Source: a virus. Taken from it: a stretch of DNA of 44,176 nt. Both the position numbers and the translations under genes were made by a program. Below the pieces are notes generated by a model. It was not told the DNA's origin, ran no database searches, and saw nothing but the letters and a program-made list of their open reading frames with translations. Below are positions 11,215-32,010 of this stretch, one piece after another. Every line of letters starts with the position of its first letter. The stretch's first letter is position 1. Where the stretch lies: positions 1-44,176 of the IMG/VR virus record IMGVR_UViG_3300025101_000049. One strand, 5' to 3'.

Positions 11215-11732
11215 TGGAATCAAACTTTTTCAAAAGCCTTGAGATGGTGTTGAAGCATGAGGGTGGTTTTGTCGATCACCCTGAAGATCCCGGTGGTGCC
11301 ACCAACAAAGGCATCACGCACCGTACCTATTCAGAGTTTCTTGGTCGCCCCTTGGAAGACGTGGACGAATTGAAAAACATTCCAGACGACCACGTGGAAC
11401 TTATCTACAAGCAGGGATACTGGGACAAGGTAAAAGGCGACGAACTGCCCGGCGGTGTGGATTTCACTACCTTCGATTGGGCCGTCAACTCCGGGCCCGG
11501 ACGGGCAGCTAAGTATCTGCAAAGCATTGTTGAAGCAACACCTGACGGGGCCATCGGACCACGGACCTTGGAACAAGTCGCTCAGTTTGAGCCTGAGTAC
11601 ATCATCAAGGCAATGGCAGAGGATAGGGAAGGGTACTATCGCTCTTTAAAAACTTTTGATACCTTTGGTAAAGGCTGGCTACGGCGGAACAGTGAGACTC
11701 TAGAAGCCTCGCTTGAAATGAGGAACGTGTAA
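11214..11732 (+). CDS. GH108-type N-acetylmuramidase (lysozyme)
   Basis: 172 residues. The N-terminal motif EGGFVDHPEDPGGATNKGIT starts at Glu16, the likely catalytic acid of the glycosyl hydrolase 108 family. Residues about 85-120 (DWAVNSGPGRAAKYLQ, then DGAIGPRTLEQV) match the peptidoglycan-binding C-terminal half of this family. No signal peptide is visible, so it either needs the holin at 38.4 kb to reach the wall or travels in the virion. It is embedded among virion genes (ATG overlaps the upstream stop; its stop overlaps the next ATG), about 17 kb from the holin in one direction, which hints at a virion-borne role in cell entry as well as or instead of lysis. Confidence 0.85.
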   Translation: MESNFFKSLEMVLKHEGGFVDHPEDPGGATNKGITHRTYSEFLGRPLEDVDELKNIPDDHVELIYKQGYWDKVKGDELPGGVDFTTFDWAVNSGPGRAAKYLQSIVEATPDGAIGPRTLEQVAQFEPEYIIKAMAEDREGYYRSLKTFDTFGKGWLRRNSETLEASLEMRNV

Positions 11733-16068: not shown

Positions 16069-17610
16069 ATGTCTGCAGAACAATTTTCACAGATTTTTGT
16101 CGGGTTGGAAGCTGCCTACGGCACCTATGAAATTCAGCGCGAACAAAACAACGGCAAGCAAGCCGGTAAAGCCAGCGTGATCAAAAGCCCGCGGACCATG
16201 GATTTATGGGAAGGGCATTTAGACGGCACAGGCATTGCGATTGGCATCATTCCGATTAATGAAGATAACATGTGTAAGTGGGGCTGCATCGACATCGATC
16301 AGTATGCAGGCTTCAATCACGTTGAATTAATAAACAAGATACGCGAGCGGGAACTGCCGCTTGTTGTGGCGCGGTCAAAATCCGGCGGCGCACACGTGTT
16401 CCTGTTCACGTCAGACTGGATTGACGCGAAGCTGATGCAGGACACGCTGTCCACCATCTCCGCCGGTCTTGGTTATGCAGGATGCGAGATATTCCCCAAG
16501 CAGATACGCCTGCACCTTGAGCGTGGCGATGTTGGCAACTTTCTGAACCTGCCGTATTACAATGCGGAAGAGGGGCTGCGCTACGCTTTCAAGGATGACG
16601 GCTCTGCCGCAACGCTTGAAGAGTTTATCGAATTACATCAGAGGTTCGTGCAGACGGCGGAGCAGGTCACTGGGCTTTCCGTAGAAAGCAATGACGTTTC
16701 ACCAATAATGGAAGGCCCCCCCTGTCTGCAGCACCTTTGTACACAAGGTTTCCCCGAAGGCACAAGAAATAATGGGCTGTTTAACATAGGTGTGTACCTG
16801 AGAAAGTTTTCTCCCGACTCGTGGGAAGACGAACTAATGCGGTACAACATGGAACATTTCCAGCCGCCGTTGCCGCTGGCTGAAGTAAATATTATCGCTA
16901 GGCAGCTTCAGAGGCGCGACTACGCCTACAAGTGTAACGATGCCCCCATCAATGATCATTGTGACCGTGAGCGGTGCCTGACGCGCCGTTACGGGGTGGG
17001 TAACGTAGGCACTGCAGCTACAGTGGCAAACCTTCGCAAGTACAACTCCAAGCCGCCGATATGGTTTATGGATGTCAACGGCGAGCCTTTAGAGCTAGAC
17101 ACCGACGCGCTGCAGAATCAGTCCAGCTTCCAGCGGTCTTGTATCGAACAGCTTAACGTCATGCCGCCGACAGTCAGCAAGCCTGTTTGGGAGAACCGCG
17201 TGGCGGCGCTGCTTCGGGACATGACAGAGACAGAGGGCGGCGTCATTGAAGCCAGTACCGACGCATCTATTGACGGCGCATTTTACGAGTATCTTGAAGA
17301 TTTCTGCCGCAACATGCAGACCGCCGCCGACAAGGAAGAGATACTGCTTCGCCGCCCATGGACAGACGAGGACAACAGCCTGACGTTCTTCCGGCTCAAG
17401 GATTTTGAAAACTATCTGAAGAGGCAGCGGTTCTTTGAGTTTAAAACGCACCGCATTGCCCAACGCCTACGGGACATCAACGGTGAGTCTACGGTGCTTC
17501 GCATCAAGGGTCGCGTCGTGCGCGTGTGGCAAATCCCTTCATTTGAAGAAGGCATATCCGACATCAGCCCGCCGGACTACGGCGTCAATGAAAAGGATAT
17601 CCCCTTCTGA
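16069..17610 (+). CDS. archaeo-eukaryotic-type (AEP) primase
   Basis: 513 residues. AEP motif I is CIDIDQY with Asp75 and Asp77; motif II is SKSGGAHVFLF with His109; the EIFPKQ segment (140-145) fits motif III. The set matches phage and TOTE-type AEP primases. A second domain (about 215-310) has conserved-looking cysteines C219, C289, C298 and C303 with GTRNNGLFN and a closing RRYGVG, suggesting a metal-binding PriCT-like module. The C-terminus, NEKDIPF, again mimics the SSB tip. It would make primers for the polymerase at 19560. The stop overlaps the helicase start (TGATG). Confidence 0.8.
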   Translation: MSAEQFSQIFVGLEAAYGTYEIQREQNNGKQAGKASVIKSPRTMDLWEGHLDGTGIAIGIIPINEDNMCKWGCIDIDQYAGFNHVELINKIRERELPLVVARSKSGGAHVFLFTSDWIDAKLMQDTLSTISAGLGYAGCEIFPKQIRLHLERGDVGNFLNLPYYNAEEGLRYAFKDDGSAATLEEFIELHQRFVQTAEQVTGLSVESNDVSPIMEGPPCLQHLCTQGFPEGTRNNGLFNIGVYLRKFSPDSWEDELMRYNMEHFQPPLPLAEVNIIARQLQRRDYAYKCNDAPINDHCDRERCLTRRYGVGNVGTAATVANLRKYNSKPPIWFMDVNGEPLELDTDALQNQSSFQRSCIEQLNVMPPTVSKPVWENRVAALLRDMTETEGGVIEASTDASIDGAFYEYLEDFCRNMQTAADKEEILLRRPWTDEDNSLTFFRLKDFENYLKRQRFFEFKTHRIAQRLRDINGESTVLRIKGRVVRVWQIPSFEEGISDISPPDYGVNEKDIPF

Positions 17611-22304: not shown

Positions 22305-22474
22305 TTACCGCTCCCAAAAAATCTACCGCGAGCCGCCGGAGTCTTCTTTTTTAAAGAACGGATCTCCGGCCCCCGCTTTGGTGGTGGTGGTTGTGGTATC
22401 TCCAGTGCCTTCAGACGAATAGCTTGAAGAGCTTTTTTAAACTCTTCAAGCGTCATGTCGTCCCGGTAACGCAC
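22298..22474 (-). CDS. small basic Pro/Lys-rich protein
   Basis: 58 residues if started at the GTG (22474) that overlaps the ParB-like stop by one base, or 52 from the ATG at 22456 (MTLEEFKKAL...). A short helix (TLEEFKKALQAIRLKALEI) is followed by PQPPPPKRGPEIRSLKKKTPAARGRFFG, a basic disordered tail that could contact DNA or RNA. Neither start has a strong ribosome site, so coupling to the upstream gene is likely. Unknown family. Confidence 0.5.
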   Translation of the reverse strand: MRYRDDMTLEEFKKALQAIRLKALEIPQPPPPKRGPEIRSLKKKTPAARGRFFGSGKC

Positions 22475-23352
22475 TAGATTTCCATCAGCTTGTCGTCGAG
22501 GTACACTTCCATGTCGGCCTTCTTGCTCCGCTTCTTGTGCTTGAAATTGTACCAAGCCCGCGTGAGCATCACACTATAATCGTGTGACGTGATCCGCCGT
22601 TCACGGTTCATCTTCATCCGCGTCAATGTTTCGACGAGGTGACGGGACGGCTGATACTTGCTGGTCCCTGATCCGCCGACGCGAAGCTCCGAATAAAACT
22701 TAGCCACAAGCTCTTCGTCGTCGTTCTGGCTGGCAATGTAGTAAAGCGCCGCCGTCTGACCAATCGGGTAGCTGATCACGCTGTAAACGTTCTTAGCTGC
22801 CTTAATCGCCCGCTGCATAAGCTCTTCGTCAATGTCATTAAGGTACATGTCCTTAATGATCTGGTTCGATACGGTGCCCTGCGTGTTCGTTACACCACGC
22901 TTCCAAGCACGTATCATCTTCATTGCACCGGCCACCTTGCCGGAGTTCGGTACACCCATGATTGCGAGGATATCGTCCCCGCCGCGATTTTTTCCTGTGT
23001 CCATGTGGTGGAACGTTGCAGGATCAATGCCAAAAATGACATGCGTCTTAAATGGCGTTTGGGCCCGTATGCAAGCTGCCAGACGATTCTGACCATCCAG
23101 AAGACGCCCGTTGTCGCCGAAGCAGATTGTCTCGCCAGTCAATGACCAGTTGTGTGCGGCCATGTCTTTGGCGTAATCTACGATACGCTGCGGCTTTTGA
23201 GGACGATTCCCGATATTAAGCTTAGACAGAATGTGTTCTGCCAAGGACGGGGTAAATTCCATCACCACACTGTTCGTTGGTGACTTGCGGAGAAACTTCT
23301 CCAAGTTTTTGACTTCGGTTTCTTTTTCAGATTGTGTTTTGATGATCTGCAT
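22474..23352 (-). CDS. ParB/Srx-fold phage protein
   Basis: 292 residues. The N-terminal part has NRPQKPQRIVDYAKDM, NWSLTGETICF and GRLLDGQNRLAAC (82-94), the core of a phage family annotated as ParB/Srx-like; DGQNR corresponds to the nucleotide-contacting GxxR region of ParB. The C-terminal half is helical. I see no clear KorB/ParB-type helix-turn-helix for parS recognition, so it is unlikely to be a canonical centromere-binding ParB. It heads a leftward operon driven by a promoter at 23389-23417, 1.4 kb from two perfect parS sites. Confidence 0.75.
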   Translation of the reverse strand: MQIIKTQSEKETEVKNLEKFLRKSPTNSVVMEFTPSLAEHILSKLNIGNRPQKPQRIVDYAKDMAAHNWSLTGETICFGDNGRLLDGQNRLAACIRAQTPFKTHVIFGIDPATFHHMDTGKNRGGDDILAIMGVPNSGKVAGAMKMIRAWKRGVTNTQGTVSNQIIKDMYLNDIDEELMQRAIKAAKNVYSVISYPIGQTAALYYIASQNDDEELVAKFYSELRVGGSGTSKYQPSRHLVETLTRMKMNRERRITSHDYSVMLTRAWYNFKHKKRSKKADMEVYLDDKLMEI

Positions 23353-24380: not shown

Positions 24381-24689
24381 TTATCTCCGCGGCTGCGGGG
24401 GCGTTGGCACTAGCCTCGTTTCAAGGCACTCCAACGCTACCCCTTCGTCGTCGGGGATATCATCCTTGGTTCCGAACACACCCTGATGGGTGGCGTGGAA
24501 CCCGTCGTAATCTTCGACATCGAAGATGTTGACCGGCACCTCATCCTTGAAGGTGTACAAGCTGCTCCAGTCACGAACAAGAATGCTCGCTGCACTGGTG
24601 GCAGCTTCGTCAGCCGATGAGCCGTAAGCCCAAGAGCTTCCGCACCCAATAAAGATGATGGCAAGGAAAGACGGATTGGTGTCAGACAT
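24381..24689 (-). CDS. small unknown protein, first gene left of the parS region
   Basis: 102 residues from MSDTNPSFLAII, chosen for GGAGGT 4 bases upstream; an in-frame ATG 36 bases earlier lacks a site. The N-terminus is hydrophobic with a Cys (FLAIIFIGCGSSWAYGSS). The rest is acidic, ending LVPTPPQPRR. Possibly exported or peptide-like at the N-terminus, but no clear signal peptidase site. First in the leftward transcription unit from the promoter at 24794-24822. Confidence 0.55.
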   Translation of the reverse strand: MSDTNPSFLAIIFIGCGSSWAYGSSADEAATSAASILVRDWSSLYTFKDEVPVNIFDVEDYDGFHATHQGVFGTKDDIPDDEGVALECLETRLVPTPPQPRR

Positions 24690-24733
24690 ACTGACCTCCA
24701 TTGGTTGTTTGGTTAACGATGTCAAATAGCGAA

Positions 24734-24749
24734 TGTTTCACGTGAAACA
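24734..24749. other. parS: parS site 1 (perfect chromosomal ParB-binding consensus)
   Basis: TGTTTCACGTGAAACA, identical to the bacterial parS consensus. The palindrome extends perfectly to 22 bp (24731-24752). In hosts, ParB loads here and spreads as a CTP-dependent clamp. It lies 45 bases upstream of the leftward gene at 24689, beyond the promoter's start region, in noncoding DNA. Confidence 0.9.
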
Positions 24750-24793
24750 TTCCGGGCCCGAAAGCCCATAGCCCTATTTCGAGCTACCCTACT

Positions 24794-24822
24794 ATCTTAA
24801 AGGATAACTCCCATACGGTCAA
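24794..24822 (-). promoter_or_regulatory. leftward promoter with TATGGGA spacer
   Basis: Minus strand: TTGACC (24822-24817), 17-base spacer starting GTATGGGA, TAAGAT (24799-24794). It transcribes across parS site 1 into the gene at 24689. Confidence 0.6.
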
Positions 24823-24839
24823 TGCGACATATTGTCGCA
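24823..24839. promoter_or_regulatory. 17-bp operator-like dyad between the parS sites
   Basis: TGCGACA-TAT-TGTCGCA, a perfect inverted repeat abutting the -35 of the leftward promoter. Placement suggests a regulator-binding site, activator or repressor. Confidence 0.55.
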
Positions 24840-24880
24840 GGCTTCAGCTGAGTATTCCGCGCCCGCGGGCGTAAAATCAA

Positions 24881-24896
24881 TGTTTCACGTGAAACA
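24881..24896. other. parS: parS site 2 (perfect chromosomal ParB-binding consensus)
   Basis: TGTTTCACGTGAAACA again, 147 bases from site 1, with unrelated flanks, so the 16-bp core alone is conserved. It lies 55 bases upstream of the -35 of the rightward promoter at 24951. Two exact 16-mers of a known centromere sequence in one 316-bp intergenic region cannot be chance. Confidence 0.9.
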
Positions 24897-24950
24897 CTTT
24901 AGAATGATTCTAATGTAGGTTAACTTGAATTTGGTTAACTACTTTTTTGC

Positions 24951-24978
24951 TTGACTTGTATGGGACGGTTCCCATAAT
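24951..24978 (+). promoter_or_regulatory. rightward promoter with ATGGGA dyad
   Basis: TTGACT (24951-24956), 16-base spacer, CATAAT (24973-24978). The spacer carries TATGGGA and a perfect inverted repeat ATGGGA-CGGT-TCCCAT (24960-24975). Two GGTTAACT copies (24918 and 24933) lie just upstream. Drives the small-gene operon from 25006. Confidence 0.65.
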
Positions 24979-25005
24979 GACCGGATCAACAAAAGGAGAG
25001 AACCA

Positions 25006-25311
25006 ATGGCAAACAGTCATTTGAGCCCCACGACAGGGGATTTCACCATCGACGCAGCCGCCCGCCGGGAACTGCTGCGAGGACATAACGAACTACGTGC
25101 AGCAGTCACTTATGCGGAAGAGATGAAAGACCTTAACCTATCACATCTTTCGCAAATGGAAGACCTCGTCCACAAGCTGTATTCAATTTTAAAATTTGCG
25201 CCGGGCGTCGATGACGACGGACGGCCACAGTTTTGGGGAAACTGGGTGCTGGCAGAAGAAAACGAGCCCGCGCCCAAGAAACGCGGACGCCCGAAGAAAA
25301 ATGACGGTTAG
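25006..25311 (+). CDS. small protein with AT-hook tail
   Basis: 101 residues, MANSHLSPTTGDFT..., with AAGGAG upstream. Residues 20-65 are helical (ARRELLRGHNELRAAVTYAEEM...), and the C-terminus PKKRGRPKKNDG contains an AT-hook core (RGRPKK). Likely DNA-associated and directly downstream of the parS region. It shares the tail type with the protein at 19173. Overlaps the next gene by 11 bases. Confidence 0.6.
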   Translation: MANSHLSPTTGDFTIDAAARRELLRGHNELRAAVTYAEEMKDLNLSHLSQMEDLVHKLYSILKFAPGVDDDGRPQFWGNWVLAEENEPAPKKRGRPKKNDG

Positions 25312-30552: not shown

Positions 30553-32010
30553 ATGAGCGACGAAATCCAAGATAAAGTAGTCAAGTTACAGCTTCGACTA
30601 GCTCAATTAAATCGCATTGAACACTGTCAGAATGATTTCTTAGGCTTTGTGAAATCGGTCTGGCCGGAGTTCATTGCAGGAGAGCATCACCGCATCATTG
30701 CAGAGAAGTTTGAGCGCGTAGCCAAGGGCGAATTGAAGCGTTTGATCATCAATATGGCCCCGCGTCACACAAAGTCTGAGTTTGCCAGTTATCTTCTGCC
30801 CGCATGGTTCATTGGGCAGAACCCGGCGATGAAAATCATTCAGGCAACGCACACCACAGAGCTTGCAGTGTCTTTTGGCCGTAAGGTTAAGAACCTTTTG
30901 GAGCGAGAGGACTACTCTGAAATCTTCCCCGAAGCGAAGCTGTCGGCGGATTCAAAGGCGTCAGGTAGGTGGGATACATCACGCGGCGGCATGTACTACG
31001 CGGTTGGTGTCGGTAGTAACCTTGCTGGTCGTGGCGGTGACTTAATTATCATTGACGATCCTCATTCTGAGCAGACTGCTATGTCGGCGTCGGGGTTTGA
31101 CAACGACTGGGATTGGTACACAGGGGGCCCCCGACAGCGTCTGCAGCCCGGCGGGGCCATCATTTTGGTTATGACACGGTGGTCGGAAAAGGATCTGACC
31201 GGCCAGCTTATCCGTCAAATGGGTAAAGATGAGAAAGCGGATCAGTGGGAAGTTGTGGAACTTCCTGCAATTATGGACGACGAGGAACCTTGTTGGCCGG
31301 AGTTTTGGTCAAAAGACGATCTTGAAAGAGTTAAGGCATCTATCCCGCCGTCGAAGTGGAACGCGCAGTATCAGCAGCGTCCTACCGGTGAAGAGAACGC
31401 AATTATCCCACGAGAGTGGTGGCAGCGGTGGGAAAAGACAGAAGTACCTAATCTTGAATACGTCATTCAGAGTTACGACACGGCGTTTTCCAAAAGGGAG
31501 AGTGCTGACTACAGCGCGATAACGACGTGGGGCGTCTTTCGCCCGGAAGAAATTGGGGGGCCCCCGGCGGTCATTTTGCTGGATAGCAAGAAGGGACGGT
31601 GGGATTTTCCAGAGTTGAAAGCAGAAGCTTACGAAAGCTATCAGTTTTGGGAACCTGATACTGTAATCGTGGAAGCGAAGGCGTCAGGGACTCCTTTGAC
31701 ACACGAACTACGCAACATGGGCATTCCTGTTGTGAATTTTACGCCATCTCGCGGCAACGATAAGGTGTCGCGTGTCCATTCTGTATCTCCTTTGTTTGAG
31801 GCAGGTATGGTGTATGCCCCGGATGAGACATTTGCGGACGAGCTTATTGAGGAAGTTGCGGCTTTCCCCAATGGTGAGTATGATGACCTTGTCGATAGTA
31901 TGACCCAAGCCCTGATGCGATACCGTCAGGGTAATTTCGTATCGTTACCTACGGATGATTGGGACATAGACGAGGACAACTATACTCAGGTACGCTCGTA
32001 TTATGGCTGA
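30553..32010 (+). CDS. terL: terminase large subunit (packaging ATPase/nuclease)
   Basis: 485 residues. ATPase: Walker A-like APRHTKSE (69-76), Walker B LIIIDDPHS (164-172), motif III VMTRW (206-210). RNase H-type nuclease: Asp309 in SYDTAF, Glu374 in VIVEAK and Asp444/Asp448 in YDDLVDSM. All key acidic residues are present, so both DNA translocation and cutting should work. It heads the head-gene operon; its stop overlaps the next start by 8 bases. Confidence 0.92.
   Translation: MSDEIQDKVVKLQLRLAQLNRIEHCQNDFLGFVKSVWPEFIAGEHHRIIAEKFERVAKGELKRLIINMAPRHTKSEFASYLLPAWFIGQNPAMKIIQATHTTELAVSFGRKVKNLLEREDYSEIFPEAKLSADSKASGRWDTSRGGMYYAVGVGSNLAGRGGDLIIIDDPHSEQTAMSASGFDNDWDWYTGGPRQRLQPGGAIILVMTRWSEKDLTGQLIRQMGKDEKADQWEVVELPAIMDDEEPCWPEFWSKDDLERVKASIPPSKWNAQYQQRPTGEENAIIPREWWQRWEKTEVPNLEYVIQSYDTAFSKRESADYSAITTWGVFRPEEIGGPPAVILLDSKKGRWDFPELKAEAYESYQFWEPDTVIVEAKASGTPLTHELRNMGIPVVNFTPSRGNDKVSRVHSVSPLFEAGMVYAPDETFADELIEEVAAFPNGEYDDLVDSMTQALMRYRQGNFVSLPTDDWDIDEDNYTQVRSYYG

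Follow-up and report, generated by a model that had tools for sequence, protein, structure and literature searches.

The DNA analysed here, called the window throughout, is the whole of a virus record of 44,176 bases with a GC content of 0.50. Its translated ORFs matched PHROGs for a large terminase, portal, major head protein, virion protein, GroES and endolysin, as well as for a PolA-type polymerase, a primase and helicases, and a small terminase and a VRR-type nuclease (the nuclease below the Pfam cut-off) are encoded near the sites described below. Among the 30 of 49 translated ORFs that were scanned against PHROGs, no match named as an integrase or a repressor was obtained. The large terminase (TerL) showed 59.1% identity to that of Pelagibacter phage HTVC027P, 60.5% to that of 023Pt_psg01 and 52.7% to that of HTVC023P, and the kinds of genes, as assigned by PHROGs, were similar to those annotated in these three phages. 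On the basis of TerL identity and gene kinds, the window is a putative HTVC023P-type podovirus with virulent-type genes; phages of this type are not known to be temperate. Since four complete relatives measure 57.6-61.5 kb, the 44-kb record may be incomplete. No DNA-level relatives of positions 20001-44176 were found in the phage collection. The window primase (16069-17610) matched the AEP-TOTE primase domain of TOTE conflict systems (PF22548, E 2.6e-11).

A sequence-only reading of this DNA had reported two perfect parS sites in a 316-bp intergenic region, and both parts of that report were borne out: TGTTTCACGTGAAACA is present exactly at two places within the gap between a leftward ATG (24689) and a rightward ATG (25006) (Table 1). 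The chromosomal parS consensus is the 16-bp palindrome TGTTNCACGTGAAACA, and the window holds two exact copies of this chromosomal type of sequence; AATGTTTCACGTGAAACA is common to both sites. When two mismatches were allowed, no further site appeared anywhere in the record and the reversed control gave none, while three mismatches gave 3 matches in the window against a mean of 0.19 in shuffled sequences, 3 being reached by 1 of 100 shuffles. The promoter-like sites listed in Table 1 are weak evidence for promoters, as 3 sigma-70-like sites were present in 1.8 kb against 1.6 expected. A homologue of the small leftward gene adjoins the site in L122-L129 as well.

Other short repeats are present in the same region. 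A 17-base palindrome, TGCGACATATTGTCGCA, lies between the parS sites at 24823-24839, is mostly conserved in the aligned relatives and is a possible operator of a phage regulator. A 15-base palindrome, TTAGAATGATTCTAA, lies beside site 2 at 24899-24913 and is retained in L124, which lacks site 2. Both ends of the intergenic region carry TTTGGTTAAC (24708-24717 and 24930-24939), without the CtrA-type spacing. The CtrA motif is TTAA-N7-TTAA, and control of the region by CtrA was rejected, the one match in the window (28811) being at chance level against a shuffle mean of 0.83.

Table 1. Features of the window at and around the parS sites
Feature	Position	Strand	Remark
parS site 1, TGTTTCACGTGAAACA	24734..24749		central 16 bases of a perfect 22-bp palindrome (24731-24752); first leftward gene on one side, leftward promoter-like site on the other
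parS site 2, TGTTTCACGTGAAACA	24881..24896		rightward promoter-like site lies some 55 bases further downstream
Divergent intergenic region	24690..25005		316 bases; both parS sites inside
Sigma-70-like promoter, leftward genes	24794..24822	-	TTGACC-17-TAAGAT; weak
Sigma-70-like promoter, rightward genes	24951..24978	+	TTGACT-16-CATAAT; weak
Small leftward gene	24381..24689	-	adjoins site 1; no family match
Small rightward gene	25006..25311	+	no family match
phrog_5931 protein	22474..23352	-	helical C-terminal part; no recognised ParB HTH
Large terminase (TerL)	30553..32010	+	query of the family census

Conservation among close relatives and in the wider family

The sequence-only reading had made its case depend on related phages keeping the sites at this locus, and this stood for close relatives and failed for distant ones. 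When the neighbouring phrog_5931 protein was used as query, the search gave 30 relatives. One or two exact sites occupied the matching place in all ten relatives with at least 68% identity in this protein. The ten amount to six different sequences in the surroundings of the site, and L124-L129, six of the ten, carry a single copy. None of the 20 relatives with 58% identity or less had an exact site, five of these holding less than 2.2 kb of upstream sequence, and one of the 20 (L132) had a two-mismatch match at another place.

A census seeded with TerL gave 80 loci, chosen without regard to parS. The exact 16-mer was present in 10 of these and a site with up to two mismatches in 15. As a control, the half-site was permuted to give 200 palindromes, none of which occurred in any of the 80 loci. 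Of the five inexact sites, four were TGTTCCACGTGAAACA or TGTTCCACGTGGAACA, whose differences from TGTTTCACGTGAAACA presumably fall at degenerate positions of the parS consensus alone, and one was TGTTTCACGTGTGACA. The combined pattern TGTT[TC]CACGTG[AG]AACA was present in 14 loci, 12 of them among the 28 loci with at least 74% TerL identity and 2 among the 52 below that, and was absent from 66 of the 80, many of the loci being incomplete. Mean GC was 0.49 in site-bearing loci against 0.42 in those without a site, a gap that may reflect different hosts.

Longer sequences gave a similar division. Among 20 virus records of 15-65 kb, 7 had a site that matched TGTTNCACGTGNAACA with at most one mismatch and 13 had none, with no match to the reversed control; four of the 20 (L123, L124, L125 and L128) were picked with their sites already known, and the 16 derived from the census comprise 3 with and 13 without a site. 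Five named relatives were searched whole: HTVC027P has the near-perfect CGTTTCACGTGAAACA and HTVC023P the doubtful TGTTACACATGTAACA, while no site was found in 023Pt_psg01, DSL-LC04 or Pag-Yong1. In about 50 kb of each of the Roseobacter phages CRP-901, CRP-902 and CRP-810 there was no site within two mismatches, and CRP-810 has TGTTCCACGTGGAACC, with three mismatches. The parS trait in the wider family is partial.

Position, flanks and clustering of the sites

In IMG/VR, at least 119 stretches carried the exact 16-mer as compared to 1 with the reversed palindrome, and 47 of the 119 loci listed clustered with the window through chains of at least two shared proteins. In nine census loci, 47-161 bases separate the site from the TerL match that follows it, an arrangement from which the window differs. 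Elsewhere it is found upstream of terS (L046), in the gap between terL and portal (L070, L110) or in the gap between portal and groES (L033, L060), and relatives with 75-81% TerL identity have it spread over several position classes. Since position differs even between relatives as close as these, a function of the whole molecule is favoured over one operator.

The sites also occur in clusters. Five exact copies lie within about 0.8-0.9 kb in L018 and L045, and in L287 and L097 the starts of an exact site and of a TGTTCCACGTGGAACA are 24 bases apart. The five-copy clusters adjoin a terminase gene in these more distant relatives (L018, 2657-3444; L045, 10535-11462).

For the analysis of flanks and ORFs, the family was defined by hand as 52 sources including the window and 43 of the 119 pattern loci, the rest being L124, L125, L129, L130, L131, L235, L287 and L289. 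The remaining 76 pattern loci were counted as other, including L004, L092, L095 and L109, which had clustered with the window. The flanks of 63 distinct family sites were near-uniform in base composition at positions -8 to -3, with a preference for A only at -1 and -2, in agreement with the earlier statement that the flanks differ. Outside ORFs of at least 60 aa, taken as the longest non-overlapping ORFs and left uncurated, lay 41 of 69 family sites as compared to 6.6 expected (the maximum of 20,000 simulations was 19), and 32 of 87 sites in the other loci as compared to 8.2 expected. The changing places together with the near-uniform flanks therefore indicate that selection appears to act on the presence of the core on the molecule and not on one address.

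These data bear on a role that had been suggested earlier, in which ParB spreading from the sites would silence nearby phage promoters; the ParB clamps might also time these promoters, serving as a sensor of host state like KorB-type or Spo0A/CtrA-type control. The window sites do flank weak divergent promoter-like sites, many family sites lie directly upstream of terL, silencing by a KorB sliding clamp is described in PMC11790492, and host factors control phi29 and alphaproteobacterial phages according to PMC9437464. However, unrelated genes stand beside the site in different relatives, some sites fall within ORFs, and the window has no CtrA-type cluster. The finding of the site at different places in relatives weakened the case for local silencing, which we now consider quite unlikely.

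Sites in other phages and exclusion of chance

A 30-mer including the site was searched against 50,697 phage records and matched 388 of them at 1,153 places, whereas its reversed control hit 9 places in 7 records. A match in this search takes about 16 identical bases, the two strands of a palindrome are each scored as a place, and inexact sites and duplicate records are part of the count. When the best place was required to have at least 99% identity, 236 records remained against 3 for the reversed sequence. The Listeria rows of this search include unannotated records and may be host DNA. Enterobacterial hosts are not known to have a chromosomal ParB, and in an informal count no enterobacterial name group was among the ten commonest groups of the 30-mer search, which fits, Klebsiella and Escherichia being the second and third name groups in a TerL search of the same collection. 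Mycobacterium phages, the hosts of which do have ParB, were likewise outside the top ten.

Site-bearing contigs in IMG/VR extend to very different kinds of phage. Genes for phi29-like capsids were found in L011 and L071, SU10-type portals in L023 and L091, and a Microviridae capsid in L007, with which L027 and L076 cluster. Eleven named phages, picked as prior matches, were searched whole; all 11 had exact sites and none had a match to the reversed control. The phi29-like phage B103 has one exact 16-mer and one TGTTTCACGTGGAACA. One exact site was counted in Hungatella phage CH17P1 (a partial genome), two each in DSS3_MAL1, Gordonia phage PatrickStar and the Arthrobacter phages VroomVroom and Emotion, three each in DSS3P8, Butyrivibrio virus Arian and Lpa804, and four in vB_BcoS-136, three of which share a single 226-base interval flanked by annotated genes. 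Some sites do fall within genes, namely both B103 sites and one Emotion site, which are inside annotated genes. Six exact parS sites are present in the 6,183 bases of an inovirus (L335, PQ006097.1), and an inovirus is expected to persist in dividing cells. No site within three mismatches was found in 41.6 kb of phage MW202675, nor any site in the phi29-like MT835814.

The presence of the sites is not chance. Single sites in some contigs, for example within long ORFs, may be chance matches or contaminating host chromosome, but the controls are near zero, the sites adjoin terminase and portal genes, and complete named phages carry them. We give chance or contamination a negligible likelihood as the general explanation; for the family, both were ruled out by the controls, by synteny and by conservation in close relatives.

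Some of the sites lie in terminal repeats. L071, a phi29-like contig of 11.7 kb, ends on both sides in a perfect inverted repeat of 150 bases (1-150 and 11576-11725), and an exact site is present at the inner end of each copy. In Vibrio phage phi 3 (NC_028895) an exact site lies in the annotated left terminal repeat; phiPsa347 (MT670420) has a candidate site, a 90.9% match, in its annotated DTR. Such placement would suit early loading by ParB-parS of host SMC/condensin, compacting or protecting incoming or replicating phage DNA independently of inheritance, and the linking of parS with ParA and Smc by ParB is covered in PMC8494293. The window sites are internal, though, and this reading appears distinctly improbable to us.

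Same site in chromosomes of candidate hosts

The exact 16-mer was also found in marine alphaproteobacterial genomes. In Pelagibacteraceae bacterium AG-404-L13, which from the style of its name we take to be a single-cell genome, it lies in the gid-par region, inside an ORF read as gidB that adjoins ORFs read by eye as gidA and parA, with a match to the HTH_ParB profile about 1.7 kb away. In a Rhodobacteraceae MAG the 16-mer stands between ORFs read by eye as mnmE-like and mnmG-like, and in Maricaulis and Rhodobiaceae MAGs it is about 1.8 kb from an HTH_ParB match. The AG-404-L13 genome also holds a contig of the phage family of the window (L245), in the 21 kb of which no site was found; therefore, AG-404-L13 shows the use of the sequence in the clade and does not identify the host of the window.

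No partition genes found in the window, and the phrog_5931 protein

The earlier reading had seen neither ParA nor an HTH-containing ParB in the window, and profile searches agreed, as PF02195, PF13614 and PF17762 each gave no match there. The ParA-type ATPase profile (PF13614) matched 0 of 22 records including the window, while it was positive in 14 of 14 control genomes. ParB_N (PF02195) was not found in the window, in ten close relatives or in four complete named phages; among the matches listed, it was present in 4 of the 119 site-bearing records, 3 of them above the cut-off (2 of 50, 2 of 50 and 0 of 19 in the three batches). The ParB HTH profile (PF17762) matched 1 of 24 records, below the cut-off. 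A phage-encoded ParABS was rejected on these profile results, many of the records scanned being fragments and the 44-kb window itself possibly incomplete.

The nearest candidate for a phage-encoded binder was the phrog_5931 protein, of which residues 25-122 probably adopt a ParB/sulfiredoxin-type fold as judged from its AlphaFold model (mean pLDDT 82). The best Foldseek match was weak (pNOB8-like ParB-N, E 0.1). VIA gave Z scores of 4.4-5.2 over about residues 25-122, where Z below 8 can reflect a common arrangement, and its top 13 rows were ParB, PadC, Noc, KorB or sulfiredoxin chains, or one Agrobacterium protein. Homologues of this protein are present in mycobacterial, rhizobial and vibrio phages. 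As a parS binder it was considered and is not favoured; because relatives without the site retain its gene, the phrog_5931 protein is probably not the parS binder.

The same protein is relevant to the proposal that the palindrome only resembles parS and serves as operator for a different regulator, encoded by the phage or by the host. The presence, less than 2 kb from the sites, of a gene for a product with a probable ParB-type fold, as modelled, speaks for such an operator. Against this, the phrog_5931 gene occurs without an exact site in 20 of 30 loci (five of them with short upstream sequence), four of the five inexact census sites presumably vary at degenerate positions of the consensus alone, and the site recurs in very different kinds of phage. 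We regard an operator that merely resembles parS as very improbable.

Proposed recruitment of host ParB as the best explanation

The suggestion that host ParB is the likely binder, and that the sites look like real host-type parS under selection, is supported as a prediction by the sequence comparisons above. Our best explanation, in which we have about even confidence, is that the window sites are host-type parS under selection that recruit host ParB, so that phage DNA is partitioned and inherited when lysis is delayed. We infer the following course, in which loading, spreading and the benefit of inheritance are all predicted steps. Upon infection, host ParB would load at the two sites, and the loaded ParB would close as a CTP-dependent clamp and spread over part of the phage genome. 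The phage DNA would thereby become cargo of the host ParABS machinery, together with SMC where present. In a slow or resting cell with delayed lysis, the phage genome would be tied to the region of the host origin or pole and would pass to daughter cells. The benefit is most likely positioning plus inheritance. The changing position, the clustering and the six-site inovirus favour such a role at the level of the molecule over control of one promoter. The time needed for inheritance is an assumption, because HTVC023P-type phages are not known as temperate.

Host ParB might also be bound to the detriment of the host. As a decoy, the parS copies on replicating phage genomes would pull ParB, and in alphaproteobacteria the ParB-MipZ control of division, off the host origin and stall chromosome segregation and division during lytic infection; ParB-MipZ coupling is reviewed in PMC7022226. 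The virulent gene set, with no match named integrase or repressor among the 30 ORFs scanned, fits a decoy, and a changing site position suits it as well as it suits a centromere. But one or two sites per genome would make a poor sink at anything but a high phage copy number, a sink has no need of clustered sites, and the six-site inovirus should gain little by blocking host division. We hold a decoy to be unlikely.

Partitioning by host ParB has a published precedent, phi29 with Spo0J, in which the phage DNA enters the Bacillus forespore; the earlier reading had not named it when it proposed hitch-hiking. Entrapment of the phi29 genome in spores with the help of host Spo0J (ParB) was reportedly described by Meijer et al. 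in 2005. According to PMC9437464, Spo0A puts the lytic cycle of phi29 on hold, and the phage genome is meanwhile captured in the spore together with host Spo0J. The window has the same combination as a phi29-type phage, namely virulent-type genes, parS-like sites and no par genes found.

Comparison with known systems

Phi29 and its relatives are virulent phages, and the window has virulent-type genes; phi29 uses host ParB, and B103 has the sites without a ParA or ParB-HTH match. The window is an unrelated podovirus, though, its named relatives infect SAR11 and spores are not expected there. With alphaproteobacterial chromosomal parS, the window shares the identical 16-mer found in the gid-par region of marine genomes, but its sites are on a phage genome, in few copies, with no adjacent parAB and in no fixed position. 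Phages P1 and N15 and cluster A mycobacteriophages encode their own ParA and/or ParB; they carry a phage-borne centromere as the window does, whereas no ParA or ParB of its own was found in the window.

Staphylococcus phage Lacachita, as presented in the accessible text of PMC10286716, has a ParB-like gene and no ParA, while the window has the site and not the protein; both have an incomplete partition set that is thought to lean on the host. The authors of that paper, in the same text, knew of no characterised phage with only parB, and the text at hand has no mention of parS-only phages. Lytic deferment has been proposed for CtrA-site phages (PMC9437464, available portion), which like the window have intergenic sites for a host cell-cycle protein. 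CtrA is a transcription factor, however, whereas parS loads a partition clamp, and the window has no CtrA cluster. HTVC023P-type pelagiphages, the type being named in PMC9599517 (seen in part), have TerL proteins 53-61% identical to that of the window and a similar gene set, the GC of the window being 0.50; neither parS nor ParB is mentioned in the main text of that paper. In a word search of the accessible text of the HTVC027P transcriptome paper (PMC12753301), ParA, ParB and 'cell division' occurred 0 times. Phage B83 has a ParM-type system according to the available part of PMC6669507. Within the accessible portions of the open-access literature, we found no description beyond phi29 of parS in phages without parB.

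Significance

The window would follow the phi29 precedent, and a general class of parS-only phages would be new if confirmed. We think it rather likely that such phages form a broad unrecognised class comprising several tailed families, ssDNA microviruses and inoviruses, in which a centromere alone, repeatedly acquired and shifting in place, enlists host ParB. The data suggest that phages commonly target host ParB, which in most bacteria is the central protein of chromosome segregation, by means of nothing more than a 16-bp DNA site, and gene-based annotation overlooks such sites. They also matter for work that applies parS tags or ParB ChIP to phage-infected cultures. Exact sites are present in the phages of several named phage-host pairs, namely B103 with Bacillus subtilis, DSS3P8 with Ruegeria pomeroyi DSS-3, vB_BcoS-136 with Bacillus cohnii and Lpa804 with Lactobacillus plantarum. 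Recruitment of host ParB offers a testable idea for the persistence of virulent phages in slow or resting cells, as in pseudolysogeny or lytic deferment. If true, it would be segregation parasitism without a phage protein, in which the effector is 16 bases of DNA.
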